64,000 nt of DNA. Origin: an uncultured Flavobacteriales bacterium (GTDB lineage Bacteria > Bacteroidota > Bacteroidia > Flavobacteriales_G > Salibacteraceae). Below are positions 2,250 through 34,122 of the stretch, in pieces. The position numbers and the translations under genes were made by a program. A model generated the notes under the pieces. That model did no database searches and was not told the origin of the DNA. It saw nothing but the letters and a program-made list of their open reading frames with translations. Each line of letters begins with the position of its first letter. The stretch's first letter is position 1. Location of the stretch: NCBI GenBank assembly GCA_937121175.1, contig CAKZKD010000003.1, forward strand, positions 62,001-126,000, read 5' to 3'.

Positions 2250-2995
2250 TGACCTTTGATTTTGCAGGCAAAACCGTTTTAATTACTGGAGGTACTAGAG
2301 GTATTGGTAGCGCCATGGCTAAAGCATTTTCGAATGCCAATGCTCGTGTAATTTGCACAGGTACTAATTCAGATAACATATCAAACTTAAAAGATTCTTC
2401 CCAAACAGATCAAGTAAGTTACATTCAATTGGACTTATCCGATGATAATTCCATTCGGCGCTTTTTCGAAAAAATGGACAAGGAGAACCCGAAAATTGAT
2501 GTTCTTATAAATAATGCGGGTATCAATCAGATTGAGACAGTTGATCAATTTGATGTCGAAGCATGGAACAAGATTATTAAAGTCAATCTGTCTGGCTCGT
2601 TTGCCATGATTAATCATTTTTCGAAAGGAATGATTGAAAGAAAAAGTGGTAAAATATTAAATATTGCGTCTATTTTTGGGTCTATTACTAAAGAGAAGCG
2701 TTCTGCTTATACCTCTTCCAAAGCTGGGCTTATAGGTTTAACCAAGACTAGTTCCGTGGATTTAGCACCACATGGTATACTGGTGAATTCAGTTTCTCCG
2801 GGTTTTATTAATACTGAACTTACAAGAACTATTTTATCTCCCAAAGGAATACAGGAGCTAGTGTCGATGGTTCCTATGAATCGATTAGGAGAGGTTCATG
2901 AAGTTGCTAACCTCGCGCTGTTTATCTGCAGTGATTTAAATACTTTTATTACAGGACAAAACATAACAATTGATGGAGGATTCGTTAACATTTAA
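2249..2995 (+). CDS. short-chain dehydrogenase/reductase (SDR)
   Basis: A classical SDR of 248 residues, starting at the ATG that overlaps the preceding stop (TAATG at 2247-2251). An in-frame start at 2222 would add nine residues of no family resemblance. It shows the cofactor motif 'TGGTRGIG' (14-21), the structural 'NNAG', and the catalytic Ser...Tyr-x-x-x-Lys seen in 'NIASIFG' and 'AYTSSKAG', ending with the usual 'GQNITIDGGF'. Such enzymes reduce or oxidise keto/hydroxyl groups with NAD(P)H. With two dehydrogenase genes flanking an isomerase and a cyclase, it probably acts on the same carbocyclic or sugar intermediate. Confidence 0.88.
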   Translation: MTFDFAGKTVLITGGTRGIGSAMAKAFSNANARVICTGTNSDNISNLKDSSQTDQVSYIQLDLSDDNSIRRFFEKMDKENPKIDVLINNAGINQIETVDQFDVEAWNKIIKVNLSGSFAMINHFSKGMIERKSGKILNIASIFGSITKEKRSAYTSSKAGLIGLTKTSSVDLAPHGILVNSVSPGFINTELTRTILSPKGIQELVSMVPMNRLGEVHEVANLALFICSDLNTFITGQNITIDGGFVNI

Positions 2996-4058
2996 ACCAA
3001 TCAATGTAAAGTCGAACATTCGTGATTATTCGGCTGAATTTATTGACAACGTGAATAGTAAGCTCACGGATTATAAAGAAGGTGAAACTTTTTTCATAAT
3101 CGATCATAACGTAATTGATTTATATAAGTCTGAGCTGTCTCATATCTTGGATCGCTTTAGCGTTGTGAATTTCGAATCGGTTGAACCCCAAAAATCTTTA
3201 GATAGGGCATCAGATATTGTTTTGTCTTTAATAGAACAAGGGTTTAAAAAGAACTATCGATTGGTTGGAATTGGAGGCGGTATTGTTCAGGATATCACCG
3301 GATTTGTAGCTTCTATTCTTTTTAGAGGTGTTTCTTGGGATTTGTTTCCCACAACGTTGCTTTCGCAGGCAGATAGTTGCATTGGTAGCAAGACTTCTAT
3401 TAATGTAAAAGATTACAAAAACCAATTGGGGACCTTTTTTCCTCCCGAAAATGTATATGTAAGTACGACGTTTTTAGGAACTCTAAATCATTCCGAAATA
3501 CTTTCAGGTGTAGGTGAAATGATAAAAGTTCACCTTTTGGATAACAAAGAGAGTTTTGAATATTTAGCCCAAAATTACGAGGCTATCTTTCGAGATAATC
3601 AGGTTATGTTGGAAGCGATTTATAGAAGCTTGCAGATTAAAAAACGGGTCATTGAAATTGATGAGTTTGACCGGGATTATCGCAACATAATGAACTACGG
3701 GCATTCTTTTGGACATGCTATTGAGTCTGTTACGAATTATGGCATTCCTCATGGTCAAGCTGTTACTATAGGAATGGATATCGCCAATTTCGTTTCAGTG
3801 AAAATGGGTTTACTCTCCGAAGAGCAGTATACAAGGTATGAAGAATTGATTCTTAAGAATTTTCCGAATTACGATTTGGCCTCATTAGATATTGACCAAT
3901 TGATTCTTTCACTTTCTAAGGACAAAAAAAACATTGGAAAAAGACTAACGCTTATCTTAACTAAGGGAGCCGGTCAAATGGATAAGTATGTAGTTCAGTC
4001 CGATGAGTTATTTAAATCCTGGATTGTAGCATACTTCGAAAAACGAATAAATGCCTGA
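2973..4058 (+). CDS. non-canonical AroB-like sugar-phosphate cyclase
   Basis: This 361-residue protein belongs to the dehydroquinate synthase superfamily, which uses NAD and a divalent metal to close sugar phosphates into carbocycles. Visible are the NAD loop 'GIGGGIVQDITGFVAS', 'PTTLLSQADS', the metal Glu in 'GVGEMIK', and the metal His residues in 'NYGHSFGHAIES' and 'PHGQAV'. It departs from ordinary AroB where that has 'SSVGGKTGxN' and 'KNxIG': here the text reads 'SCIGSKTSIN' and 'KNQLGTFFPP', closer to what I recall of EEVS-type cyclases that use sedoheptulose 7-phosphate. Its place in a sugar operon, overlapping the SDR gene by 23 nt, also argues against a shikimate role. The ATG at 2973 is chosen over a TTG one codon earlier. 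Confidence 0.8.
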   Translation: MEDSLTFKPINVKSNIRDYSAEFIDNVNSKLTDYKEGETFFIIDHNVIDLYKSELSHILDRFSVVNFESVEPQKSLDRASDIVLSLIEQGFKKNYRLVGIGGGIVQDITGFVASILFRGVSWDLFPTTLLSQADSCIGSKTSINVKDYKNQLGTFFPPENVYVSTTFLGTLNHSEILSGVGEMIKVHLLDNKESFEYLAQNYEAIFRDNQVMLEAIYRSLQIKKRVIEIDEFDRDYRNIMNYGHSFGHAIESVTNYGIPHGQAVTIGMDIANFVSVKMGLLSEEQYTRYEELILKNFPNYDLASLDIDQLILSLSKDKKNIGKRLTLILTKGAGQMDKYVVQSDELFKSWIVAYFEKRINA

Positions 4059-4707
4059 TTTTCATTTTCTTTCGCACGAAATAAATCGAGACACTCCTCA
4101 ATACGGTGGCGCAGACAATATTGAGATTGCTTCTGATTCTAGAATCTCAAACGGAGATACTGCGAATACGATGTATCTCAAACTGAGTAATCACGTTGGA
4201 ACTCATATCGATTTTCCGAATCACTTTTCCGATTCAGGAAAAACCCTTAGTGATTACGAAGCGGGGTTTTGGAAATTTGACACCGTTGAGGTTTTGGAAA
4301 TCGAAGCAGTTAATGACGAAATAATTACATTTTCTGAGAAAATAGATAGTCTTTCAGAGGATACGGACTTTTTGATTTTAAAGACTGGATTCGAAAGATA
4401 CAGAGGACAAGAAGCTTATTGGAAACATAACCCAGGCATAGAACCAAAAATGGCTTCTTTGTTAAAGAAAAGGTGTCCAAAATTAAGGGTGTTTGGTTTC
4501 GACTTTATTTCGTTGACGCCTCAACAGAATAAACCTGTTGGAAGGCAAGCACACAAGGATTTTCTTCTTGAAAATGAGATATTAATTGTAGAAGATATGC
4601 ACTTATCTCTTCTAAGTGTTGGAACACAGGTGGAAGAATTGATTTGCCTGCCGTTGGCACTGGAAAAGTCCGATGGTGCCCAGGTTTCCATAATCGCAAA
4701 GTTCTAA
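4051..4707 (+). CDS. cyclase / kynurenine-formamidase family metal hydrolase
   Basis: A 218-residue protein with the family signature 'HVGTHIDFPNH' (HxGTHxDxPxH), the His/Asp metal-binding motif of arylformamidase and 'cyclase family' proteins. Members hydrolyse formamides, lactones or related bonds and occur in several biosynthetic clusters, including polyketide and sugar pathways. The start overlaps the cyclase stop by 8 nt, so the two are translationally coupled. No tryptophan-degradation genes are nearby, so kynurenine formamidase activity is unlikely here. A lactonase or ring-opening role in the neighbouring pathway is an inference. Confidence 0.8.
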   Translation: MPDFHFLSHEINRDTPQYGGADNIEIASDSRISNGDTANTMYLKLSNHVGTHIDFPNHFSDSGKTLSDYEAGFWKFDTVEVLEIEAVNDEIITFSEKIDSLSEDTDFLILKTGFERYRGQEAYWKHNPGIEPKMASLLKKRCPKLRVFGFDFISLTPQQNKPVGRQAHKDFLLENEILIVEDMHLSLLSVGTQVEELICLPLALEKSDGAQVSIIAKF

Positions 4708-4709
4708 TT

Positions 4710-6512
4710 ATGGGTTTTCAGAATAACGCGATACTACAGAATTATCGTCAACTATTCAGAGTTCTTCCTCGTGAGTTTAAGCCTAAGTTTTATTTGCTTT
4801 TTGCGTTAATTCTCACTAATACACTTGTGGATGTTTTTGCATTGGGTTCCGTGGTGCCCATGGTTTCTATACTTTTAGATAAAAGCATAGTTGAGTCCAA
4901 CCAGTATTTATCATTAGCTTATAATAAGTTAGGGTTCGAATCCGTAGAAATGTTTCTGGTTTTTCTAGCGTCTGTAGTTTTTTTTGTTTTTCTTTTTAAA
5001 AACATATTTGCGCTAATGGTAATAAAATACCAAACCCATTTTGCATATAACCTCTCGAGTGAGATTTCGCAGAAGCAATTTGTTCATTATAATCAAAAAG
5101 GTATTTCTTTTTTGAAAAGCAAAAATTCAACGGATTTGGTAAACGAAGGGTTTGCTTTGCCCATGCACTTTGCTAACAATATATCCATTGCGTCCATCAA
5201 CTTATTATCGGAGTCTACAGTTATTTTAATAATCCTGGTTGCTTTAACTATCTATAAACCCATTTTAATACTAATAGTGGGTTTTGTAATAGGCCCGTTA
5301 TTTGTCTTGGCATACAGAAGTGCCAATAAGAAAATTCGAGAGTACGAAGTTGAAATTAATCGAGTGGGGCCTTTTGCTGCTAGAAAAATGTATCAGGCCA
5401 TTTTTGGCTATTTCGATATTAAGTTGTCCAATAGAGATGTCTTTTTTTATAAGGAGTATCGAAATGTATTGGCCCAGCTGGTAAGTTTTCAGGAAAAGAA
5501 ATATTTTTTCACCCAACTTCCAAGTAAAATATTAGAAACGAGTATTTTTCTGTGTCTCTCACTTCTTATTATTTACACCAATTTATCGATTTCAGATTCT
5601 AAAGAATCTTTGGTCACTATCATTTCAATTTTTGCATTGGCCTCATATCGTTTGCTGCCTAGTATGAATAGAATCATGCTTGCATTGATGGGGATAAAAG
5701 GGTTTAGTTACATTTTTGATAAAATTCAAGATTCTAATTCTGTAGACTTTGAGCAGTTTATTCAGGAGCATGAGGTTGGAACAGAGGAATTGAAATTTAA
5801 AAATAACATACTTCTCAAAGATGTGGGGTTTTGGTATACTGAAGGTATTTCAGTATTGAATAAGATAAATCTTGAGATTAACAAAGGAGATGTTCTAGGT
5901 ATTGTAGGTACATCTGGTTCGGGTAAAACCACATTAATGAATTTGATGTTGGCTTTTTTAACTCAGAAAAGTGGTAGCATAAGTGTTGATGGAATTCCAA
6001 TTACAAGTGATAACAAGTTCGCCTGGAGATCTCTAATAGGTTATGTCCCTCAAGAGGGCTATATAGTGGATGGGACAATGGCTGAAAATTTGGCTTTTGG
6101 ACATTCCGAAAAAGACTGGAATTTCAATAAAATGCAAACTGTTCTGGAGCAAGTCGATATGCTTGAGCTATTGAATAATTTGCCTAGTGGTTTGGAATCG
6201 CAAGTAGGAGAGAACGGTGCTAATCTTTCCGGTGGGCAAAAGCAAAGGCTCATAATTGCCAGAGCTTTATATAACGATGTGCAGATTCTTGTATTGGATG
6301 AGGCTACCAGCAGTTTAGACAACGAAACTGAACAGAAATTCTCAGAAACGCTTTCCAAGCTATCCGAGGACCAAAACATTACTTGTATTATGATTGCACA
6401 CAGGTATAGTACGCTTAAAAACTGTAATAAAATTGTGGAGATTGATAAGGGGTATATCACAAATAGATATCAATCTTATTCAGATTTGATAAAAGCCAAG
6501 GAAAAATCTTAG
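4710..6512 (+). CDS. ABC exporter, fused permease-ATPase (MsbA/PglK-like)
   Basis: This 600-residue half-transporter has about six hydrophobic segments in the first 330 residues and a C-terminal ATPase. The ATPase shows Walker A 'GTSGSGKTT' (about residue 400), Q-loop 'YVPQEGYIVDGT', signature 'LSGGQKQR', Walker B 'ILVLDEATSSLD' and H-loop 'IAHR', all intact. It should act as a homodimer in the inner membrane and export or flip a lipid-linked sugar or other amphipathic product. The ATG at 4710, 2 nt after the preceding stop, is preferred over non-ATG starts inside the upstream gene. As last gene of the operon it is the obvious exporter for its product. Confidence 0.88.
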   Translation: MGFQNNAILQNYRQLFRVLPREFKPKFYLLFALILTNTLVDVFALGSVVPMVSILLDKSIVESNQYLSLAYNKLGFESVEMFLVFLASVVFFVFLFKNIFALMVIKYQTHFAYNLSSEISQKQFVHYNQKGISFLKSKNSTDLVNEGFALPMHFANNISIASINLLSESTVILIILVALTIYKPILILIVGFVIGPLFVLAYRSANKKIREYEVEINRVGPFAARKMYQAIFGYFDIKLSNRDVFFYKEYRNVLAQLVSFQEKKYFFTQLPSKILETSIFLCLSLLIIYTNLSISDSKESLVTIISIFALASYRLLPSMNRIMLALMGIKGFSYIFDKIQDSNSVDFEQFIQEHEVGTEELKFKNNILLKDVGFWYTEGISVLNKINLEINKGDVLGIVGTSGSGKTTLMNLMLAFLTQKSGSISVDGIPITSDNKFAWRSLIGYVPQEGYIVDGTMAENLAFGHSEKDWNFNKMQTVLEQVDMLELLNNLPSGLESQVGENGANLSGGQKQRLIIARALYNDVQILVLDEATSSLDNETEQKFSETLSKLSEDQNITCIMIAHRYSTLKNCNKIVEIDKGYITNRYQSYSDLIKAKEKS

Positions 6513-21138: not shown

Positions 21139-23007
21139 ATGTGTGGTATAGCAGGTGTTTATGGTTTAGAAGGTATAGGAGATGCTAAGCGGATTTCCGA
21201 TTTATTGGCAGGAGCAATAGACCATCGTGGTCCCGATTCCAACGGAGTTTATTTGGACTCTGAAGTTATACTTACTCATACTCGGCTTTCAATAATAGAT
21301 GTAGATGCTAGATCTAATCAACCATTTATGGATCCGAAGAAACGTTATGTACTCGCTTTTAACGGTGAGATTTATAACTATTTAGAGATTCGAAAAGAGT
21401 TACTAGGTTATAATTTTCAGACTAATTCAGATACAGAAGTCTTGCTGGCGGCATGGGAAAAATGGGGCGATAGTTGTCTTAGTCGGTTAAATGGAATGTT
21501 TGCTTTCGCGATATGGGATAAGCTGAATTCCGAACTCTTTTTGTGCCGAGATCGTTTGGGAATAAAGCCGTTGTATTTCTATCAAGATGATTCTAGGATT
21601 TTATTTTCTTCAGAGATTAGGGCTTTACTCCAAACAGGTTTAGTCCCACGAAAATTAGCTAAGGGTCATTTGGAAGAATACCTTAAATACCAAACGGTGC
21701 ATACGCCAAGAACTATGGTAAAGGGAGTGGAGATGATTTCTCCAGGTTCATATTTAAGAATTTCCGATAACGAAATTGAAAAGACGCAGTTCTGGAGTTT
21801 GAGCCAAAACCGACCGGTATCTTCTTTCAACAAGGGTAAGGTTCTTAAAAATGTATCAACTCTTTTGGACTCGTCCGTTGAGATGAGATTGCTAAGCGAT
21901 GTGCCGCTTGGTGCATTTTTATCGGGGGGCATAGATTCTTCGCTTATAGTAGGAATTGTATCAGAACGATTGAACATAAAAATTGATACTTTCTCAGTTA
22001 CTTTTGATGAACAGGAATTCTCCGAGGCTAAATACAGCAACCTTATTGCTAAAAAGTTTAATACAAATCATCATGAAATTGCTTTAAATCAGGATGATTT
22101 TAAACAAGCTGTGCCAAAGGCTCTTCTTGCAATGGATCATCCTAGCGGAGATGGTCCAAATAGTTACGTTGTATCTGAAGCAGTTAAAAATTCAGGACTC
22201 ACGGTAGCTTTATCGGGCTTGGGAGGAGATGAGCTTTTTGCAGGTTATCCTTTCTTTAAGCAATACTTGGAATTGAATCAAAAAAAGTATTTACTCAGTT
22301 TTCCTAAATATTTTCGGAACCTTGTTGCTCATTTTATTAAACTTAAATACCAAGGAATAAAGGGGCAAAAAATAGCGGAGACATTTACACTTCCGTATTT
22401 TGATGTACCTCACACTTACCCCATAAATAGAAGGGCGCTTAGTGATAAAGATATTAAAAGTGTATTATGCAGCTATACGGGGGAAGATTCACTTCTTCAT
22501 GATCTTAATTCCAGTTTTAATTGGCAGGAAACCGGTAACCTTCCTGAATTAAGTAAGGTTTCAATAGCCGAAATATCAACGTATATGCAAAATGTCTTAT
22601 TAAGGGATACGGACCAAATGAGCATGGCGCACGCTTTGGAGGTTAGAGTACCCTTTTTAGATCACCGCTTGGTGGAATATGTCATGGGAGTAAGTGATAA
22701 CTTTAAATATCCTCGGTTCGCCAAATCATTATTGATTGATTCGTATGAGGGACTATTGCCTGACGAGGTTATTCATAGACCAAAGATGGGTTTTGTCTTA
22801 CCTTGGGAAAGTTGGATGAAAAATGAACTAAAAGATTTATGCTTGTCCTCGTTTGATTATTTAGAGAATGAAACGGAGTATTTTATTGGAGGGTCTTTGC
22901 ATGATTTGTTCAATCGATTCGCAAATGGAGACAAACAAGTTTCGTGGAGTCGAATTTGGCCCATTGTTGCATTAGGTAGTTGGATGAAAAATAATAAGAT
23001 TGAATAA
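21139..23007 (+). CDS. asnB: glutamine-hydrolysing asparagine synthetase-type amidotransferase
   Basis: The 622-residue protein starts 'MCGIAGVYG', with the Ntn nucleophile Cys2, and its glutaminase half includes 'HRGPDSNG', 'LSIID' and 'FNGEIYNY'. The second half has the ATP pyrophosphatase loop 'FLSGGIDSS' and 'ALSGLGGDELFAGY'. It makes an amide from a carboxylate using glutamine and ATP. AsnB homologues inside polysaccharide loci are thought to amidate uronic acids or amino-acid substituents, and that is plausible here. A normal asparagine synthetase role cannot be excluded. Confidence 0.88.
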   Translation: MCGIAGVYGLEGIGDAKRISDLLAGAIDHRGPDSNGVYLDSEVILTHTRLSIIDVDARSNQPFMDPKKRYVLAFNGEIYNYLEIRKELLGYNFQTNSDTEVLLAAWEKWGDSCLSRLNGMFAFAIWDKLNSELFLCRDRLGIKPLYFYQDDSRILFSSEIRALLQTGLVPRKLAKGHLEEYLKYQTVHTPRTMVKGVEMISPGSYLRISDNEIEKTQFWSLSQNRPVSSFNKGKVLKNVSTLLDSSVEMRLLSDVPLGAFLSGGIDSSLIVGIVSERLNIKIDTFSVTFDEQEFSEAKYSNLIAKKFNTNHHEIALNQDDFKQAVPKALLAMDHPSGDGPNSYVVSEAVKNSGLTVALSGLGGDELFAGYPFFKQYLELNQKKYLLSFPKYFRNLVAHFIKLKYQGIKGQKIAETFTLPYFDVPHTYPINRRALSDKDIKSVLCSYTGEDSLLHDLNSSFNWQETGNLPELSKVSIAEISTYMQNVLLRDTDQMSMAHALEVRVPFLDHRLVEYVMGVSDNFKYPRFAKSLLIDSYEGLLPDEVIHRPKMGFVLPWESWMKNELKDLCLSSFDYLENETEYFIGGSLHDLFNRFANGDKQVSWSRIWPIVALGSWMKNNKIE

Positions 23008-25551: not shown

Positions 25552-25563
25552 CTTTGGTTATTG

Positions 25564-26487
25564 ATGCAACTCTCTATCATTATACCTGTATACGGAAGCC
25601 CTGAATCTATCAAGGAGTTATGTGAGCGCGTATCAACAAGTCTTCGAGGCTTAGTTGATTCTTTTGAAATTATTTTAGTTGATGATGAATGCCCCGACGA
25701 TTCTTGGTCGGAAATTAAAAAAACTACTCAAACCCTACCAAATGTTATTGGATTAAAGCTTTCCAGAAATTTCGGACAACACAAAGCTATTTGTGCTGGG
25801 TTACACGAGTCAAAAGGTGACTATTGTGTAGTTATGGATTGCGACTTACAAGACCTTCCAGAAGATATTCCTACTCTTTATGAAAAAGCGAAAGAAGGGA
25901 ATGATGTTGTATTAGGGCAACGTATCGAAAGGCAGGATAAAAAGTTCAAAGTGCTGAAGTCGAAAGTTTTCTACTACTTTTTTAATTTGTTGTCTGGTTT
26001 AAATAGCGACCCAACCGTTGCCAACTTTTCTATTATCAGCAGGAAAGTAGTCACGGCATATTTATCCTTTAAAGAACAGGATATAGATTATACCAATGTA
26101 ATTAATTGGTTAGGATTCGATGCGGTTAAAATTCCTGTAAGGCACGCTGAACGTAAATATGGGGAAAGTTCCTATAATTACTGGAAATTAATGGAACTAG
26201 CCTTTACTCTTATTATTTCGGAATCAAATAAACCCCTTCGATTTTCCGTGAAGTTTGGGTTTTTATTGTCTATCATTAGTTTTTTATATGGGCTTTATAT
26301 CATGTATAAGAAGTTCGTATTTGGCGTACCTATTCAAGGGTGGACAAGTGTTATGGTTTCCATTTATTTCATAGGAGGGTTGCTTTTTGCTAATATGGGA
26401 GTTTTGGGATTGTACATTGGAAAAATATTTAAGGAAAATAAGGCACGTCCTAGGTTTGTTGTGAGTAAAAGGCTAACATCTAAATAG
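25564..26487 (+). CDS. membrane glycosyltransferase family 2 (ArnC/GtrB-like)
   Basis: 307 residues from ATG 25564 (a TTG just upstream is less likely). The GT-A domain shows 'SIIIPVYGSPESI', 'IILVDDECPDDS', 'LSRNFGQHKAICAGL' and 'VVMDCDLQDLPED', the DxD-type donor and metal site. Two membrane segments close the protein (about residues 224-250 and 265-290). This architecture belongs to DPM1/ArnC/GtrB enzymes, which transfer a sugar to undecaprenyl phosphate. It may make a lipid-linked monosaccharide used for side-chain addition. Confidence 0.87.
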   Translation: MQLSIIIPVYGSPESIKELCERVSTSLRGLVDSFEIILVDDECPDDSWSEIKKTTQTLPNVIGLKLSRNFGQHKAICAGLHESKGDYCVVMDCDLQDLPEDIPTLYEKAKEGNDVVLGQRIERQDKKFKVLKSKVFYYFFNLLSGLNSDPTVANFSIISRKVVTAYLSFKEQDIDYTNVINWLGFDAVKIPVRHAERKYGESSYNYWKLMELAFTLIISESNKPLRFSVKFGFLLSIISFLYGLYIMYKKFVFGVPIQGWTSVMVSIYFIGGLLFANMGVLGLYIGKIFKENKARPRFVVSKRLTSK

Positions 26488-26491
26488 TCTT

Positions 26492-27688
26492 ATGGACAAG
26501 GTAATCGTTCTCGCTGCTACAATAAATCAACTTCCAATTATTCGTTTATTGAAGGAACTAGGAGTGTATGTTATTACTGTAGATAATATACCGGAAAATA
26601 TTGGACATGCAGAAGCAGACAAAAATTATAATCTCGATATAACGGATATTACTAAAGTCTTTGAAATTGCGCAGTCAGAGAAGATAAAGGCAATTATTGC
26701 TGCCTACACAGATGTTGGCGTGAAGACGGCATCATTTGTTAGTGAGCAATTAAATCTTGTGGGTTGTAATTTCCAAGCTGCTAAAACACTCACTAATAAG
26801 TCTGAGTTTCGTTCATTTTACAAAAAAGAAATAGATCCACATTTTTTGTTCAAAACGTTCACAAAAAGTGAATTTAAAGGCTGGGCTCAGGCTAAACATG
26901 AATCAAAGTGGATTGTAAAACCTGTTGACTCCTCAGGAAGTAAAGGAATCGAAATAATTTCTTCTGATGATAATGCCGCTATTATTAGAGCATTCGATTA
27001 TTCCAACAAAAAACAAATTATTGTTGAACAATTTCATGTCGGAAGACAAGGCACTTTAGAGGGGTTTCTTTCTCACGGGAAACTCAAATTGTCTTTAATT
27101 ACAAATCGTTTAACGGCACCAGCTCCTCATGTCGCAACACAAGGTCATGTTTTTCCATCAGATTTTAACGCAATTGAACAAAAAGAAATCGAGCAAGTGG
27201 TGTTGTCGATTTGTACGAAACTTAACATAAACGAAGGGCCACTTGATGTTGATTTCGTGTTTAATGAAGAAGGCGCTCATATTATTGAAATGAGCCCTAG
27301 ACTTGGAGGAAACAATTTGTCTAATTTCTTAGAGGCAGTTACGAAAGTTGACCTAAGAAGAATGACAGTGAATTATTACTTAGGTGAAAAAGTGGATAAT
27401 CTAGACGTGCAAATTGAGAAAAACGTAAAATTTGTTCAGTGGGTTATGACTTCAAATACTGCGGGCACGCTTATTTATAATTCTAAAAAAGCCTGTGAAG
27501 CTCTTGAATTAGAATACGTTGAAGAACTAACTATTTTTGAATCATCTGGTTCCACAGTTAACAAGTTCACAAACGGTCGAGATTCCTATGGTTTCTTAAT
27601 TTTAAAACTTCCAATAGAAGCTTCCATTCCAACTTATCTGAAAGAACTAGAAACTTTTATTGAGCTTAAAGTTGAATCAGAATCATGA
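26492..27688 (+). CDS. ATP-grasp ligase (carbamoyl-phosphate-synthase-like)
   Basis: A 398-residue ATP-grasp protein. It has an N-terminal pre-ATP domain ('VIVLAATINQLPIIRLL'), ATP-binding residues in 'WIVKPVDSSGSKGIEII' and 'IIVEQFHVGRQG', and metal-binding 'GPLDVDFVF' and 'HIIEMSPRLGGNN'. These ligases activate a carboxylate with ATP and join it to an amine or thiol. It is the first of a tightly overlapped group with a PLP decarboxylase, flavin monooxygenase, methyltransferase and WecE, which suggests it couples an amino acid or other acid to an amino sugar. The substrate is not readable from the sequence. Confidence 0.82.
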   Translation: MDKVIVLAATINQLPIIRLLKELGVYVITVDNIPENIGHAEADKNYNLDITDITKVFEIAQSEKIKAIIAAYTDVGVKTASFVSEQLNLVGCNFQAAKTLTNKSEFRSFYKKEIDPHFLFKTFTKSEFKGWAQAKHESKWIVKPVDSSGSKGIEIISSDDNAAIIRAFDYSNKKQIIVEQFHVGRQGTLEGFLSHGKLKLSLITNRLTAPAPHVATQGHVFPSDFNAIEQKEIEQVVLSICTKLNINEGPLDVDFVFNEEGAHIIEMSPRLGGNNLSNFLEAVTKVDLRRMTVNYYLGEKVDNLDVQIEKNVKFVQWVMTSNTAGTLIYNSKKACEALELEYVEELTIFESSGSTVNKFTNGRDSYGFLILKLPIEASIPTYLKELETFIELKVESES

Positions 27689-28893
27689 ACCTTAAAGATG
27701 CTCAAATAATAAGATTATTTGAATCTTACGATTCTTATTATCTCGCGGACATCGAAAAGCTCAAAATGAATTTGAAGAAATTCAAAAGAGCATTTCAATC
27801 CTACTACACCAAGATTGATATTGGATTTTCAGTAAAAACAAATTATTTACCTGCCTTTTGCAAAGCGGTTTTAGAAGAAGGTTATAAAGCTGAAGTCGTT
27901 TCAGGAATGGAATATGACTTAGTAAGTGAAATTGGATTTAAAGGCTCTGACGTAATTTTTAATGGTCCTGCTAAATCATCAGATGCTATTCGCAAAGCAA
28001 TTGTAAATGATTCCTTAATTCAAGTGGATTCTATTGGGGAGTTAAAATATATCCAGTCCTTTTGCGAGGAAAATCAGAAGCAAATTAAATTAGGCCTACG
28101 ATTAAATCTGTCGGTTGTGGAGTCTCGTTTCGGTATTTCCAAAAATGAAATTAACGAAGCATTAACTGTCATAACCGAAAGTCAATTTTTGAATCTTACC
28201 ACTTTACATTGCCACCAAATGCCTGCGTTCAAATCCTCAAAAGGATATAATGAGTTGGCAAAGGAGATGCTTGAGGTTTATGATGAAGTCAGCCAAAATG
28301 GATTCGATATACAAACCTTAAATATGGGTGGAGGCTTCGCTAGCCCTATGCCTCAGGTTTTAATTGAGCAATTAAATTTTACCCCTCCAACTTTTGATGA
28401 TTACGCCAAAGCAATAGCAGGAGAAATTGCAAACTATTTTTCAGAAACTACATTTAGGCCTACTTTAATTTTAGAACCAGGGTTGGCCGTATTGTCGGAT
28501 ACCTTGAAATTCTATTCTAAGGTGAAACACATCAAACTCACCAATAGTAGCTACTCAGCTATAGTTTCGGGTTCTATCTACAACATTAAACCAACTAAAA
28601 ACAAACTGAACTTACCGATTAGAATAATTGAAAATCCAGCTGTTGATTCCAGACAAAGTATTGAGTGCACAATTAGTGGTTCAACTTGTATGGAAGATGA
28701 TATTATGCACCGAAATGTTCAGATAAATGTTGCAGTGGGGGACGTTATAGAATTTTCTAATGTAGGTTCATATACCTTGGTACTGTATCCTCCATTTATA
28801 ACACCTTTGTGCGCGGTTTTGGATAGTTCTTCGTTTGAGGAATTAAAAAGTCCATCTAACTTTAAAAGCGTATTTACTGATTACAAGTTGTAA
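27685..28893 (+). CDS. PLP-dependent decarboxylase, fold type III (LysA-like)
   Basis: 402 residues with the alanine-racemase-like barrel of the DAP/ornithine/carboxynorspermidine decarboxylases. The PLP lysine lies in 'IGFSVKTNYLP'. Phosphate-binding 'NMGGGF' and 'ILEPGLAVL' follow, and near the C-terminus 'SGSTCMEDDIM' corresponds to the catalytic Cys-x-x-x-Asp of the partner subunit. It should decarboxylate a D- or meso-configured amino acid. Housekeeping LysA would not be expected in a glycan locus, and the ATGA overlap with the ATP-grasp gene implies a joint pathway. The substrate is unknown. Confidence 0.82.
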   Translation: MNLKDAQIIRLFESYDSYYLADIEKLKMNLKKFKRAFQSYYTKIDIGFSVKTNYLPAFCKAVLEEGYKAEVVSGMEYDLVSEIGFKGSDVIFNGPAKSSDAIRKAIVNDSLIQVDSIGELKYIQSFCEENQKQIKLGLRLNLSVVESRFGISKNEINEALTVITESQFLNLTTLHCHQMPAFKSSKGYNELAKEMLEVYDEVSQNGFDIQTLNMGGGFASPMPQVLIEQLNFTPPTFDDYAKAIAGEIANYFSETTFRPTLILEPGLAVLSDTLKFYSKVKHIKLTNSSYSAIVSGSIYNIKPTKNKLNLPIRIIENPAVDSRQSIECTISGSTCMEDDIMHRNVQINVAVGDVIEFSNVGSYTLVLYPPFITPLCAVLDSSSFEELKSPSNFKSVFTDYKL

Positions 28894-29933
28894 TGAGCCA
28901 GATAGAAACAGAACTTTTGATTATTGGGGCAGGGGCGGCTGGGTTGGCCAGTGCCTATTATGCTAAAAATAAAATCGATTACATTGTTATTGAAAAAGGT
29001 GAAAGCGCAGGTACATCTTGGCTTAATATGCCAGAAAACATCTACTTGCTATCGCCTTGGTATGTCAATCGTTTGCCAGGTTCTAAGTTGGATAAATTCA
29101 AAATATTCAAACAGCACGGTTGTCGTGAATTTGGAAAATACTTAAATGAATACGTTGACCAACATGGCCTTAATGTACAATTCAATAAAGAAGTCGAAAA
29201 AGTTACAGAAAGTAGTTTTGGGTATTCTATTCTGCTTAAAGACGAAACTCAGATTAGCTGTAAATATTTGATAAACGCAACTGGTTATTTTCACAATCCT
29301 ATTGTGCCAAAGAATAATGATTTAAAAGGGATACCTTTTATTCATGTTCAACAGTTTCAATCTGCTGAAAAACTGAGTAAACGATTTGACTATCAGTATA
29401 ATAACGTACTGGTAGTTGGCAGTAGAATATCAGGAGGTCAGACGGCGACAGAATTAAGCAAACATGGTTTTCAGGTTACGGTATCTGCAAGAACTCCAGT
29501 TACATTTGCCCAAGAACCGTGGTTGCAGAAACTAGTCTATTTGCCATACTACGTATATGAAAAACTATTGTCGAAGGTGAAACCAAAATTTTTGGAGGAT
29601 ACCAGTCCACCTATGGAAGCAGGGGAGACTAAGAAACTGGTAGAACAACGCAAGATTAAACTTCAACCGGCAATTAAATCTTGCGAAGGGCACAAGGTTG
29701 AATTTACGAACGGTTCTAGTGATAATTTTGATTTAATAATCTACTGTACTGGATTTGGGTATGTAGATGAACATTTGAAAGCACTTTCTTCAACATCGGA
29801 AAATAATACCGGAGCCCAGACTCTATTCTTTATGGGAAAAGATTTAGAATATACTGCTAGAAGTAGGTATTTGAGAGGAATTCGAGAGGATGCTAAAAAA
29901 GTGATTAATATGATATTAAAACTTAAATCATGA
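28893..29933 (+). CDS. flavin-dependent monooxygenase (FMO/BVMO-like)
   Basis: This 346-residue protein begins with the FAD motif 'LLIIGAGAAGLASAYYA', followed by 'IVIEKGESAGTSWLNMPE', typical of the GG-x-W/x-W region of class B monooxygenases. A second Rossmann motif for NADPH is 'VLVVGSRISGGQTATEL'. The 'LINATGYFHNPIVP' stretch matches the ATG motif of the family. Such enzymes N-hydroxylate amines or insert oxygen next to ketones. Following a decarboxylase that would make an amine, N-hydroxylation is a reasonable guess, not a demonstrated role. Confidence 0.82.
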   Translation: MSQIETELLIIGAGAAGLASAYYAKNKIDYIVIEKGESAGTSWLNMPENIYLLSPWYVNRLPGSKLDKFKIFKQHGCREFGKYLNEYVDQHGLNVQFNKEVEKVTESSFGYSILLKDETQISCKYLINATGYFHNPIVPKNNDLKGIPFIHVQQFQSAEKLSKRFDYQYNNVLVVGSRISGGQTATELSKHGFQVTVSARTPVTFAQEPWLQKLVYLPYYVYEKLLSKVKPKFLEDTSPPMEAGETKKLVEQRKIKLQPAIKSCEGHKVEFTNGSSDNFDLIIYCTGFGYVDEHLKALSSTSENNTGAQTLFFMGKDLEYTARSRYLRGIREDAKKVINMILKLKS

Positions 29934-30631
29934 GGTATAACAGTCCAATTGGTGAATTTCTATCGAGTGTAAAACGGGTAGGTTTGTTTAATACTATTGA
30001 ATTGGTAGTCAATCGTTTCGATGATTCTATGTTTGATAAAAAGTATCAGTTGGATACTTCAAAAAGATTAGAGGTTGACGAATTAGATATTTATGAAGAA
30101 GACCCGGAATTGGCCAAAAAAGGTCAAATGTATCAGCCGACGAGTGTTCGTTCATTCAAAAAGATACTGAAGAAACTATCCTTCATTAAGGATAAAAAAG
30201 TTGTGGATTACGGTTGTGGCAAAGCCAGAACATTGGCGGTTTGTTTGCTGAACGGAGTAAACGATGTTGTTGGGGTAGAGTTTTCACAAGAGTTGTGCGA
30301 TTCAGCTGAAAGCAACATGAAAAAGATGGAAACGTTGTTGCCAACAAAATTTTCATGGAAAATTCATTGTGGCGATGCTGCATTGTACCAAGTTCAGCCT
30401 GACGAAAACATATTTTACTTTTTCTTCCCATTCGATGAAACAATTACGCGCAAAGTAATAGCCAATATTTTGGAAAGTGTAAAGGGAAATAAACGAGAAA
30501 TCGTAATAGTTTATTACTACGCAATACATCGCGCAGTCGTGGAGGAATTTGAAGCTATTTATATTCACCAAGAATTTAATTTGAACGGTTACGATTGTAT
30601 TTTGTACAGAGTGAATCATGATAAACTTTAA
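29930..30631 (+). CDS. class I SAM-dependent methyltransferase
   Basis: A 233-residue protein with motif I 'VVDYGCGKARTLAVCL' (about residues 86-101), the acidic 'VVGVEFSQELCDSA', and 'IHCGDAALY'. The N-terminal 80 residues are a helical extension that may bind the acceptor. It overlaps the monooxygenase by 4 nt (ATGA) and WecE by 14 nt, which places it firmly in the five-gene block. N- or O-methylation of the block's product is inferred. Confidence 0.78.
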   Translation: MRYNSPIGEFLSSVKRVGLFNTIELVVNRFDDSMFDKKYQLDTSKRLEVDELDIYEEDPELAKKGQMYQPTSVRSFKKILKKLSFIKDKKVVDYGCGKARTLAVCLLNGVNDVVGVEFSQELCDSAESNMKKMETLLPTKFSWKIHCGDAALYQVQPDENIFYFFFPFDETITRKVIANILESVKGNKREIVIVYYYAIHRAVVEEFEAIYIHQEFNLNGYDCILYRVNHDKL

Positions 30632-31733
30632 CGAACCCTACTGTACTGGCAATGAGCCGAAGTACATTCAAGATGCCATAAACCGTGGCAAACTTTCCGG
30701 TAATGGTTATTATACCAAAAAATGTCAACATTTTCTTGAAGAAAAATTAGGTGTAAAGAAGTGTTTGCTCACTACATCATGCACCGATGCTCTGGAAATG
30801 TGCGCTATATTATTGGATATCCAACCTGGTGATGAAGTCATTATGCCATCATACACCTTTGTTTCAACAGCCAATGCCTTTGTCTTAAGAGGTGCTAAAA
30901 TTGTTTTTTGTGATTCACGACCTGATCATCCAGGGATGGATGAATCTTTAATTGAAGGCTTGTTAACCGAAAAAACCAAAGCTATTGTTCCTGTTCATTA
31001 CGCGGGTGTAGCTTGCGATATGGACAAGATTATGAGCATTGCAAAGCAACACGATTTATTTGTTGTTGAAGACGCAGCACAGGCTATCGACAGTCATTAT
31101 AAAGGTAAGCCGCTAGGTAGCATTGGTCACTTGGCAGCTTTTTCATTTCATGAGACCAAGAACATAAGTTCTGGAGAAGGAGGTGCGCTTATAATCAACG
31201 ATGACAGATTTCTTGAACGATCTGAGATAATTTGGGAAAAAGGTACCAATAGATCGGCATTTTGGAGAGGCGAAGTTGATAAATACGGATGGGTAGATAT
31301 TGGTTCATCTTTTTTGCCCTCTGAAATTACTGCTGCCTTTTTATGGGCTCAATTAGAATCATTAGAGAAAATTCAAGAACAGAGGAAATCAATTTGGAAC
31401 GCATACAACGCAGTATTTTTGAAAATAAAAAATGATCTTTTACAATTACCAGCCATTCCGGAATATGCCGAGAATAATGGTCACATGTATTATATAGTTC
31501 TTCAAAACAATGACCGGCGTTCAGAACTGATATCCTATCTAAAGAAAAAAGAAATTCATACCGTTTTTCATTATCAAAGTTTACACAGAAGTCCAGTTAT
31601 TGCCGAAAGAAGTTTTGACTGCTCATTAGCGGATTATTACACTAATTGTCTCTTGAGACTTCCGTTGTATGCAGACATGAATGTAAAAAAAGCGAAACAA
31701 ATAGCAGAATTGGTTTTAGAGCACAACAACTAA
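30618..31733 (+). CDS. wecE: dTDP-4-amino-4,6-dideoxygalactose transaminase (WecE/RffA)
   Basis: The 371-residue protein follows E. coli WecE closely over long stretches, including 'DIQPGDEVIMPSYTFVSTAN', 'VPVHYAGVAC', 'LFVVEDAAQ' and 'FSFHETKN', where Lys181 is the PLP lysine. The family (DegT/DnrJ/EryC1/StrS) makes amino sugars. WecE transfers an amino group from glutamate to dTDP-4-keto-6-deoxyglucose, giving dTDP-Fuc4N. The required RmlA and RmlB enzymes are not in the window. The free 4-amino group is a natural acceptor for the formyltransferase at 32603, the GNAT protein, or the ATP-grasp ligase. Confidence 0.92.
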   Translation: MINFNEPYCTGNEPKYIQDAINRGKLSGNGYYTKKCQHFLEEKLGVKKCLLTTSCTDALEMCAILLDIQPGDEVIMPSYTFVSTANAFVLRGAKIVFCDSRPDHPGMDESLIEGLLTEKTKAIVPVHYAGVACDMDKIMSIAKQHDLFVVEDAAQAIDSHYKGKPLGSIGHLAAFSFHETKNISSGEGGALIINDDRFLERSEIIWEKGTNRSAFWRGEVDKYGWVDIGSSFLPSEITAAFLWAQLESLEKIQEQRKSIWNAYNAVFLKIKNDLLQLPAIPEYAENNGHMYYIVLQNNDRRSELISYLKKKEIHTVFHYQSLHRSPVIAERSFDCSLADYYTNCLLRLPLYADMNVKKAKQIAELVLEHNN

Positions 31734-31748
31734 TAAGACTAACCGAAA

Positions 31749-32603
31749 TTACACTCCAACACTAACCTTTTTTACATTTTCCCATTTTACTATTTTTTCG
31801 GCTTCATGAATATCAATAAAATTATAGTCAGTGATTAGAGATTCTAGTTTTTGAAAAGACTTATTTAAGCCATAGTACGATTTAAATTTTCTAACCAATG
31901 AAAGCTCCTTAATCATTGGCTGTTCCGAGTCAAAGTCACGTGGATGAAAATAGGTCATTACATATTTTGACTCATTCATCATTTTCTTAATAAACCAATA
32001 CGGGAATAGTCTAAAGTATCCGCCACCCGAAAAAATAATTTTTTGGCCTAAAATACTTTCGACATTAATTGGAAACTCCTTGATTGAGCAACCATTAAAT
32101 TCAAGTATGCTGGGCTCGGAAGAACCGTAATGTTTCAATCCACCATGGGCTCTTAGAGCTGGGAAAATACTGCAGTCAATTTCTATTCCTTGATTCACTA
32201 ATACTTCATATACCCAAAGGTTTTCATTGGTTACTGAAAATCCAGGGGCTCTGTAAGTTCTCACTTTCTTTCCAATCAGATCTTCAATGCTTTTTATAGA
32301 TTGCTCTAAGTCAGTTTTGAACTCAGTCTTAGTTTGGTTATACGCTAACTGGTGTAAGTCGGAGTGCGTTGCTATTTCAAAGTCTAACGAATTTATTTCC
32401 TTAACGACCTCTGGAAATTTACGTGCAACCCAGCCGAGTACAAAGAAGGTCGCGCGTTGGTTGTTTTTTGATAACAATTCAAGGATACGGTTCATATTTG
32501 CCTCAAGTCGATATTCATATTTATTCCAATCTAATTCATTTTTAGTCGAATCATTATCTAGAATATGAAACCATTCCTCAATATCAAAAGTCAGTATATT
32601 CAT
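31749..32603 (-). CDS. polysaccharide deacetylase with DUF3473-type C-terminus (XrtA/PEP-CTERM-locus type)
   Basis: 284 residues, a different subtype from the other two deacetylases here. It opens with 'ILTFDIEEWFHIL' (TFD-I-E-x-W) and has 'IATHSDLHQLAY' for the His metal site. 'YRAPGFSVT' is the Arg motif and 'YVMTYFHPRDFD' is near the C-terminus. This pattern belongs to deacetylases found in exopolysaccharide/exosortase loci. It likely de-N-acetylates the polymer or an intermediate. It is last in a minus-strand operon and overlaps the formyltransferase gene by 1 nt. Confidence 0.84.
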   Translation of the reverse strand: MNILTFDIEEWFHILDNDSTKNELDWNKYEYRLEANMNRILELLSKNNQRATFFVLGWVARKFPEVVKEINSLDFEIATHSDLHQLAYNQTKTEFKTDLEQSIKSIEDLIGKKVRTYRAPGFSVTNENLWVYEVLVNQGIEIDCSIFPALRAHGGLKHYGSSEPSILEFNGCSIKEFPINVESILGQKIIFSGGGYFRLFPYWFIKKMMNESKYVMTYFHPRDFDSEQPMIKELSLVRKFKSYYGLNKSFQKLESLITDYNFIDIHEAEKIVKWENVKKVSVGV

Positions 32604-33367
32604 TAGAAGAATCTTTTACCTAATTTTCTGAATTCAACAACATCTCGCCTAGTAGGAAAACTGAAATAGGTGCTCTTGGAGTTATCATTTTCGATAAGTT
32701 TTAGGTGGCCTTTCTTGATCATATCGATGGACTTTGCAATGCATTCCATGCCAATTTTTTTCGTGTGTACAATAAGCGCCTCTTGCGTCATACCACCAAT
32801 ATCTACTTTTTCTTGAACTACTATTGGACCAGAATCTATTCCTTCATCTACAAAAAAGACTGATACCCCGGTTTCCTTTTCATCATGCCTCAAGACCCAA
32901 AAAGTAGGCATTAAACCACGATATTTAGGCAAGAGCGCCGTATGAAGATTTAAACACCCCTTTGGTGCTAGGTTTAATATTGGTTTCTTAAAGATTTGAT
33001 TTCCAAGGATTGAGACAAGCAAATCCGGAGAGTATGCTTTTATTCTTTTTACGGATTCATCAAAATTAATAGGAGCATTGAGAGTGATTGGTGGAATCTT
33101 ATAATCATTTAGCACATTGATTACCTGTTTATTTGGGTTGATTTTATTTCGCAAAAATTTAATTGAATAGTAAAAGAAGAAATTAAATCCAAAAGTTGAT
33201 AAGGTTTGCTTCGCTTTTTCATAGAATGAACTTTTTTTACCAAAAGGAGAGGCATTGGCTACAACGCAACCTACTATCGTAGAATGGGCAGGAAGTATTT
33301 CTATGAGATATCTTAAATTATCCGCAAGGTAAAATGGTTCATCTTGTGTAATTATTACGATTTTCAT
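32603..33367 (-). CDS. formyltransferase-family protein (sugar N-formyltransferase candidate)
   Basis: 254 residues related to the catalytic domain of methionyl-tRNA formyltransferase. The catalytic Asn-x-His in 'LNLHTALLPKYRG' and Asp in 'VDEGIDSGPIV' are present, as expected for N10-formyltetrahydrofolate-dependent transfer. A C-terminal OB-fold tRNA-binding domain is absent, which fits a sugar-modifying enzyme of the ArnA/WlaRD type. WecE nearby would supply a 4-amino sugar acceptor, so a product such as an N-formylated 4-amino-4,6-dideoxyhexose is plausible. It overlaps the upstream GT2 by 4 nt. Confidence 0.82.
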   Translation of the reverse strand: MKIVIITQDEPFYLADNLRYLIEILPAHSTIVGCVVANASPFGKKSSFYEKAKQTLSTFGFNFFFYYSIKFLRNKINPNKQVINVLNDYKIPPITLNAPINFDESVKRIKAYSPDLLVSILGNQIFKKPILNLAPKGCLNLHTALLPKYRGLMPTFWVLRHDEKETGVSVFFVDEGIDSGPIVVQEKVDIGGMTQEALIVHTKKIGMECIAKSIDMIKKGHLKLIENDNSKSTYFSFPTRRDVVEFRKLGKRFF

Positions 33368-34122
33368 TCTTTTATTCGTTTAAAAAATTGATTTAGTTTC
33401 TTTAGCGGTTTTCTAATCGCAATTAATGGAGAAATCCTCAGATTATTTACTTTCCAACTTTTGTATACCTCAAAATTAGAAATTACAATATTTTTTAATG
33501 AACCATTACTTATGCCTCCGGCTCGCATTTTCGCAATAGTAATAGGTATATATTCAGTTTTTGCTTTATATTTATAGATAAATCTGAGCATTAATTCGTA
33601 ATCAGCTGCTATTGTAAAATCTCTTCTGAAGGTTCCATACTTGTCATAGAGGTCCTTTTTAATATAAGTAGATAGGTGAGGAGTCATCCAACCTGTTTTG
33701 TACTTGTTTCTGTTAAAAGTGCCGGATTTCCAAACTCTTACAACCTTAGAGGTGTTTTTTTGGTCTACATAAATCTTATCTCCATAAACAACGTCTGCTC
33801 CTGTAGATTTAAATTTTTCCACGATTAGCTCTATACAATCGGCACTGTTGATAACGTCATCAGCATTTATAAAACCTATTATATCCCCAGTCGCCTTTTC
33901 AATGCCTTTATTCATGGCATCGTAGAGACCTGAATCAGGCTCACTAATAAAGGTGTCAATATAATTAGAGTAACTTCCTATAGTGTTAACAGTTCCATCG
34001 GTACTTGCTCCATCGATTACTATGTATTCAATATTTTTGTAGCTTTGGTTCATTACTGATTCAATCGCATATTCAATAGTGTTATTACAATTGAACACTA
34101 CGGTGATAATTGATACTTTCAT
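33364..34122 (-). CDS. glycosyltransferase family 2
   Basis: A 252-residue GT-A enzyme with 'VSIITVVFNCNNTIEYAI', 'IEYIVIDGASTDGT', 'SEPDSGLYDAMNKGI' and the DxD-like 'GFINADDVI'. The phrase 'SEPDSGLYDAMNKGI' is characteristic of a GT2 group common in Bacteroidota capsule loci. There are no membrane segments. It is first in a minus-strand operon with the formyltransferase and deacetylase, and may transfer the formylated amino sugar. Confidence 0.88.
   Translation of the reverse strand: MKVSIITVVFNCNNTIEYAIESVMNQSYKNIEYIVIDGASTDGTVNTIGSYSNYIDTFISEPDSGLYDAMNKGIEKATGDIIGFINADDVINSADCIELIVEKFKSTGADVVYGDKIYVDQKNTSKVVRVWKSGTFNRNKYKTGWMTPHLSTYIKKDLYDKYGTFRRDFTIAADYELMLRFIYKYKAKTEYIPITIAKMRAGGISNGSLKNIVISNFEVYKSWKVNNLRISPLIAIRKPLKKLNQFFKRIKE

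Follow-up and report, generated by a model that had tools for sequence, protein, structure and literature searches.

What surface structure might be made by a run of overlapping genes in which an amino-sugar transaminase stands together with an ATP-grasp ligase, an amino acid decarboxylase, a flavoenzyme and a methyltransferase? The question is raised by the polysaccharide locus of an uncultured Flavobacteriales bacterium, within G000:C3:62001-126000, the 64-kb piece of a 3.7-Mb genome (type IX secretion system genes present) that was analysed here as a whole and is called the window below; coordinates given without a locus label refer to it. We propose that these genes, extended by one, could form a six-gene operon that builds a 4-amino-4,6-dideoxyhexose decorated with an amino acid and hands it to a lipid carrier, for use in a surface glycan. 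In its wider form, namely that the ATP-grasp enzyme joins an amino-acid-derived group to a sugar of this locus, the proposal appears probable to us, while for the specific version, in which the amino acid is conjugated before it is decarboxylated, we see about an even chance.

An earlier sequence-only reading of this DNA had placed five genes with overlaps of 1-14 nt in this block, and its coordinates proved exact: the open reading frames (ORFs) span 26492-31733, are all full length and on the + strand with 0 internal stops, and the consecutive overlaps are, in order, 4, 1, 4 and 14 nt. The limits drawn in that reading, however, left out the gene that completes the unit, an ArnC-like family 2 glycosyltransferase (GT2), which ends 4 nt before the ATP-grasp start and is itself separated from its own preceding gene by ~130 nt. 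The GT2 and the five block genes are therefore treated here as one operon (25561-31733). The G+C content of the block (35-37%) is that of the window as a whole. A promoter and terminator scan of the block was uninformative, with promoter-like sites no more numerous than in shuffled sequences, and the PHROGs comparison gave nothing useful for the block proteins.

The last gene of the block was scored above both relevant NCBIfam cut-offs (PRK11706: 567.9 bits, cut-off 375; TIGR02379: 529.2 bits, cut-off 434.85), and at 286 bits against DegT, and its nearest solved structures (4piw, 6blg) are both of the same enzyme. It is thus securely predicted to be the WecE-type dTDP-4-amino-4,6-dideoxygalactose transaminase (dTDP, deoxythymidine diphosphate; the sugar is abbreviated Fuc4N), in agreement with its earlier assignment as the maker of a 4-amino-4,6-dideoxy sugar nucleotide. 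Since RmlB is encoded elsewhere in the genome (G000:C5:214751-215743; 459.4 bits, cut-off 365.1), the WecE substrate dTDP-4-keto-6-deoxyglucose can be made. The best NCBIfam models for the GT2 are PRK10714, the undecaprenyl-phosphate 4-deoxy-4-formamido-L-arabinose transferase (199.9 bits, below the cut-off of 529), and PgfS, also below its cut-off.

The putative ATP-grasp ligase retains the conserved ATP/Mg residues K103, K143, E179, E266 and R270, which are invariant in an alignment of 12 proteins. Its AlphaFold2 (AF2) model (predicted local distance difference test score, pLDDT, 79.9) was found by Foldseek to be nearest to 4dim, a structure filed under a phosphoribosylglycinamide synthetase name whose function is not established; two L-amino acid ligases, RizA and BL00235, come next, and BacD is sixth. 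On the basis of sequence and model we propose that this protein may join an amino acid to a sugar amine. Relatives with 20-30% identity occur in polysaccharide loci, in most cases close to a DegT aminotransferase gene; a peptide-pattern scan of a collection of genome contigs identified no close ATP-grasp relatives.

The decarboxylase belongs to the alanine racemase (AR) fold, or fold type III, of pyridoxal 5'-phosphate (PLP) enzymes. It keeps the PLP lysine Lys51, His177 of the barrel, the catalytic Cys335 and the C-terminal Tyr, and its AF2 model (pLDDT 88.7) matches LysA, BtrK and FigC about equally (Foldseek E below 1e-27), LysA structures ranking first. By sequence, the best match in the PDB is the N-citrylornithine decarboxylase FigC (7kh2), with a single sequence and with a profile alike. 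LysA is also the best single NCBIfam model, at 152.4 bits against a cut-off of 297.9. The genome carries a separate LysA-like gene (C3:279964), only 25% identical to the window decarboxylase, and this protein, like those of M. jannaschii and Aquifex, retains the EPGR and RP..Y motifs. In the window decarboxylase EPGR is replaced by EPGL, RP..Y is lost (KPT and NK at those sites) and CES has become CME; the Arg of EPGR and the Arg and Tyr of RP..Y are what we take to be the residues of LysA that bind diaminopimelate (DAP). Substrate choice in this family is set by the residues beside the catalytic cysteine and by the specificity helix, and in FigC a methionine after the cysteine replaces the acidic residue that reads the side-chain amine (PMC7857480). 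A hydrophobic residue after the catalytic cysteine is common to the window decarboxylase (CME) and FigC (CM).

Phylogenetic analysis placed the window decarboxylase in a clade (support 100/99) with decarboxylases that are encoded in phage contigs and, in Bacteroidota and Clostridia, in polysaccharide loci; this branch, which has been little studied, stands apart from LysA (100/100), FigC, MccE and a separate Bacteroidales clade. Its end branch is long (1.4) and its placement within its own clade is not settled by the tree; forced placement with LysA was rejected (approximately unbiased (AU) test, p = 0.007). Score, residues and tree therefore agree in separating it from housekeeping LysA, a distinction on which the sequence-only reading had depended. 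Matches of the decarboxylase on E. coli plasmids adjoin a ThiF-like adenylyltransferase and a major facilitator superfamily gene; we read them as MccE of the microcin C system, useful only as precedent.

Comparison with other genomes revealed that parts of the operon recur. In Acetoanaerobium noterae (locus L013) a WecE (468.9 bits, cut-off 375), a GT2 with ArnC as its best model and an ATP-grasp protein 26% identical to that of the window touch one another, with none of the other block genes present. The core trio thus occurs a second time, independently of the block, and the arrangement in the block is not due to chance. The decarboxylase and an ATP-grasp gene are likewise neighbours in several other lineages. 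In polysaccharide loci of a Prevotella metagenome-assembled genome (MAG; L026) and of Mogibacterium (L027) a sugar transferase and a decarboxylase of the same clade are followed by an ATPgrasp_Ter gene. In two Clostridia (L064:8148-10073 and L067:8115-10040) the decarboxylase is part of a 642-aa fusion with a CTP_transf_3 cytidylyltransferase; an ATP-grasp gene related to that of the block (E ~1e-18) lies upstream of the fusion gene, and downstream of it is NeuB (confirmed in L064) or an ORF of the same size (L067). Yet another arrangement, consisting of a class IV aminotransferase, a sugar transferase, the decarboxylase and an HpcH/HpaI aldolase, was found in MAGs titled Chlorobiaceae or Bacteroidia (L015, L025, L028) and in a member of Clostridia (L063), in each case with no ATP-grasp gene alongside. 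The aminotransferase and the aldolase are 53-55% identical between the four-gene cassettes L063:7734-11600 and L015:877-4512, which suggests another glycan module using this decarboxylase.

Among Bacteroidales, 89 of 247 genomes have a decarboxylase match at the threshold used, almost always a member of a 450-aa LysA-like paralog clade (loci L035-L058, L065, L066, L068 and L069). Of 24 such loci checked, which lie outside obvious polysaccharide loci, 22 have an ATPgrasp_Ter-like gene next to the decarboxylase gene.

The full gene set was found nowhere else. No second copy was present in a sample of Bacteroidota genomes searched at strict thresholds (395 genomes for the ATP-grasp, decarboxylase and flavoenzyme genes, 272 for the methyltransferase), and no other inspected locus combined relatives of the flavoenzyme and the methyltransferase with the remaining genes. 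A search of 34 other genomes of the same family did not find the ATP-grasp gene (E 1e-20), and the block is therefore a sporadic, probably acquired variant. A scattering of the five genes over related genomes, which would have counted against the earlier reading, was thus not seen in these searches. The five families together, for which that reading had suggested looking, were not found a second time; what recurs is the trio with the GT2 and the ATP-grasp/decarboxylase pair.

A wider-family decarboxylase with an ATPgrasp_Ter-like gene nearby also occurs in viral contigs (L085-L089, e.g. L087:4902-11115); the L086 decarboxylase belongs to the Bacteroidales-type clade. A glucosyltransferase-like gene (phrog_842) lies between the decarboxylase and ATP-grasp genes in L085 and L087 and after both in L088, and in both L087 and L088 the set is preceded by a ParB-like/DNA-methyltransferase-type gene and followed by a terminase. 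The viral set resembles a cassette for the modification of DNA bases. Single-sequence queries of viral contigs with the window decarboxylase and flavoenzyme found no close relatives.

The flavoenzyme, dependent on flavin adenine dinucleotide (FAD), is a short Pyr_redox_3 protein (346 aa) with the motifs GAGAAG, GSRISG (second GxGxxG site) and ATGY. It was scored at 107.8 bits against the ArsO model (cut-off 425), and its nearest PDB structures are of the SMFMO type (4usr, 4usq, 4c5o, 4a9w). Short stretches just exceed the cut-offs of a flavin-containing monooxygenase (FMO)-like model (28.5 bits) and of Lys_Orn_oxgnase (25.4 bits, cut-off 21.3, over 128 residues), the latter match being weaker than those to Pyr_redox_3 and to SMFMO/ArsO. 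The FMO signature is degenerate: LKGIPFIHVQQF has 1 extra residue between G and H in comparison with FxGxxxHxxx(F/Y). Plasmid searches with this enzyme revealed just generic FMOs (25% identity). The methyltransferase, presumed to use S-adenosylmethionine (SAM), reaches 22.4 bits with Methyltransf_25 (cut-off 27), and its relatives in Bacteroidota are found in neighbourhoods unrelated to the block. Of the five genes, whose cofactor motifs the earlier reading had called intact, these two are the less firmly assigned: the FMO signature departs from its pattern by one residue, and the methyltransferase has motif I but stays below its family cut-off. N-hydroxylation, suggested in the same reading for the flavoenzyme, was not established, the protein being closest to SMFMO/ArsO-type enzymes and not to amino-acid N-hydroxylases; with a degenerate FMO motif, we regard it as no more than a possibility. 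N-methylation was not established either, as the methyltransferase has no informative relatives.

Taken together, these data can be arranged into the following tentative pathway, with a single product for all six genes. WecE would convert dTDP-4-keto-6-deoxyglucose into dTDP-Fuc4N, and the ATP-grasp enzyme would couple an amino acid, most likely Glu or Asp by its side-chain carboxyl, to the 4-amino group as an amide. The decarboxylase would then strip the free alpha-carboxyl of the conjugate to leave a terminal primary amine, the product being a 4-aminobutanoyl amide in the case of Glu or a 3-aminopropanoyl amide in the case of Asp. The FAD enzyme and the methyltransferase may modify the decarboxylated group (its amine) or the sugar, and the ArnC-like GT2 would transfer the finished sugar to undecaprenyl phosphate. 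The order of steps is modelled on FigC, SbnH, AcsE, MccE and BtrK, which decarboxylate amino acids already conjugated by their side chain (PMC7857480); because these precedents of the branch act on such conjugates, ligation may precede decarboxylation. For the linkage, a parallel is offered by the C. botulinum flagellin sugar Leg5GluNMe7Ac, cited in PMC5207245, an amino sugar with an amide-bound glutamyl group that is attached from its side chain (4-yl) and has an N-methyl.

Several known systems resemble parts of this scheme. In the butirosin pathway a ligase, a decarboxylase and a flavin oxygenase occur together and their product acylates an amino sugar. BtrK, which acts there with BtrI, BtrJ and BtrO, is a fold III decarboxylase of side-chain-conjugated glutamate (PMC7857480). 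The block differs in the type of its flavoenzyme and in its setting, a glycan built from nucleotide sugars on a lipid carrier. The genes adjoining the block showed no obvious carrier-protein gene, and the overlaps leave no internal gap for one, although neither a motif scan nor a genome search was aimed at one. With FigC/FslC, SbnH, AcsE and MccE (clade 2 of PMC7857480) the window decarboxylase shares the AR fold, and with FigC the CM loop, but it falls into another clade, the one described above, and has EPGL where those enzymes have ELGR. Leg5GluNMe7Ac, likened here by glycan structure, is similar in that its Glu is N-methylated and bound to a sugar amine from the C4 carboxyl side (cited in PMC5207245); it differs in the absence of decarboxylation and in being a nonulosonic acid, not a 4-amino-4,6-dideoxyhexose. 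The transaminase family and the sugar nucleotide are those of the Fuc4N pathway of the enterobacterial common antigen, and the operon differs from that pathway in having an ATP-grasp gene and no WecD-like gene. WecD is the enzyme that acetylates the Fuc4N amine in the common antigen. Finally, ArnB/ArnA/ArnC provide the same succession of a 4-amino sugar nucleotide, N-acylation and transfer to undecaprenyl phosphate by an ArnC-like GT2, with the differences that here the acyl group would come from an ATP-grasp ligase instead of being formyl, and that the transaminase is of the WecE and not the ArnB type.

Table. Genes of the predicted operon and the neighbouring formyltransferase gene, in window coordinates
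Predicted product	Coordinates	Strand	Remarks
ArnC/GtrB-like GT2, undecaprenyl-phosphate sugar transferase type	25561..26487	+	PF00535; start probably ATG 25564
ATP-grasp ligase, proposed amino acid-amino sugar amide ligase	26492..27688	+	ATP-grasp_4/ATP-grasp_3 above cut-off
AR-fold (fold III) PLP decarboxylase, polysaccharide-locus clade	27685..28893	+	Orn_Arg_deC_N and Orn_DAP_Arg_deC above cut-off
FAD/NAD(P)H oxidoreductase, SMFMO/ArsO-like	28893..29933	+	Pyr_redox_3 101.6 bits (cut-off 30)
Class I SAM-dependent methyltransferase, divergent	29930..30631	+	motif I VVDYGCG; Methyltransf_25 below cut-off
WecE/RffA-type dTDP-4-keto-6-deoxyglucose transaminase (dTDP-Fuc4N)	30618..31733	+	PRK11706, TIGR02379 above cut-off
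Formyltransferase, possible competing acyl donor for the 4-amino sugar; convergent, outside the operon	32603..33367	-	PF00551

Right after WecE lies a convergent unit (31749-34122) encoding a DUF3473 polysaccharide deacetylase, the formyltransferase, whose nearest PDB structure is the ArnA formyltransferase domain, and a GT2. About 2.5 kb upstream of the operon, inside the polysaccharide locus, an asparagine-synthase-like protein (21139-23007) is recognized by its N-terminus MCGIAGVYG and, judging from this similarity, could be another amide-forming enzyme. Farther upstream the window contains an AroB-related putative sugar phosphate phospholyase (cyclizing) (2970-4058; TIGR04425, 460 bits, cut-off 400), near a Gfo/Idh-type oxidoreductase (613-1629) and a PglK-like exporter (4644-6512); it is possible that a cyclitol is made in the same surface locus from this gene set.

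That an amino-acid-derived group is attached to the amino sugar made by WecE, as the sequence-only reading had suggested, is the best reading of the block, whose genes belong together. Several observations weigh against it. As no locus with the full set was found, the FAD enzyme and the methyltransferase are tied to the rest by overlap only. The ATP-grasp proteins of L026 and L027 (ATPgrasp_Ter) come from another family than that of the block, and the L015 and L063 decarboxylases, which are accompanied by an aldolase and an aminotransferase, have no adjacent ATP-grasp gene, so that an ATP-grasp product may not be the substrate in every member of the clade. DegT genes are common in polysaccharide loci, and their occurrence within ~6 kb in 8 of the 12 ATP-grasp loci inspected (2 further loci being of the NeuB type) stands without a background rate. 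The formyltransferase beside WecE, on the opposite strand, may compete for the same amine.

Unlikely, in our opinion, is an alternative that keeps the order of steps of the earlier reading and in which the decarboxylase first makes a free small amine, for instance out of some unusual free amino acid; this amine is modified by the FAD enzyme and the methyltransferase, whereupon the ATP-grasp enzyme joins either the amine to the carboxyl of a uronic acid or a retained second carboxyl to the WecE amine. The sequence leaves the order unfixed, and the family includes decarboxylases of free amino acids (LysA, D-Orn/Lys decarboxylase); however, the acidic residue after the cysteine and the basic-substrate/DAP-binding residues of those enzymes are missing here, the ATP-grasp gene neighbours amino-sugar makers in most loci inspected, and a clade mate that is fused to a CMP-sugar synthetase-type domain agrees better with a sugar-conjugate substrate. 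The actual order is probably different from the one first suggested.

Improbable is the division of the genes between different sugars, with WecE and the formyltransferase producing a 4-formamido sugar while the ATP-grasp enzyme, decarboxylase, FAD enzyme and methyltransferase modify a different residue or serve the synthesis of some unrelated lipid or small molecule. The ArnA-type affinity of the formyltransferase, its distance of 0.9 kb from WecE, the cyclitol synthase-like gene and the many tailoring genes in the locus would agree with such a division, but the formyltransferase belongs to a separate convergent unit on the opposite strand, WecE and the methyltransferase share a 14-nt overlap, and the WecE-GT2-ATP-grasp trio recurs in L013. 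Finally, a second LysA or a lysine/ornithine decarboxylase in a block assembled by chance in a polysaccharide island is extremely improbable, and LysA identity was rejected, since the first ranks of LysA among NCBIfam models and folds are outweighed by a score of half the cut-off, the missing binding residues, the AU test and the separate genomic LysA.

Amino-acid-decorated glycans, ATP-grasp ligases of capsule loci and decarboxylases of conjugates are already known kinds; our genome searches and the open-access papers gave no other case in which they are combined with WecE, an FAD enzyme and a methyltransferase. The open-access literature, with most subscription journals outside its scope, likewise yielded no ATP-grasp/decarboxylase glycan system, no ATP-grasp enzyme associated with Fuc4N or Qui4N (4-amino-4,6-dideoxyglucose), and no phage hypermodification involving these enzymes. 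The ATP-grasp/decarboxylase pairing at large seems the more interesting outcome. We tentatively speculate, and hold it as rather doubtful, that it represents a modular decoration system, in which an ATP-grasp enzyme and a dedicated fold III branch acting on a carrier-bound amino acid put decarboxylated, oxidised groups on glycans (in phages, probably on DNA), and which in the present case would give a glycan with a 4-amino sugar whose aminoacyl amine is N-oxidised and/or methylated; to our knowledge, no such group has been described in any bacterial polysaccharide. The pathway is short and directly testable in vitro. If the proposal is true, genome annotation would change, and positively charged or redox-active groups would be predicted on surface glycans; many "diaminopimelate decarboxylase" annotations in capsule-type loci and phages would then be wrong, the proteins belonging instead to a recurring ligase/decarboxylase module by which glycans or other carriers are given primary amines.

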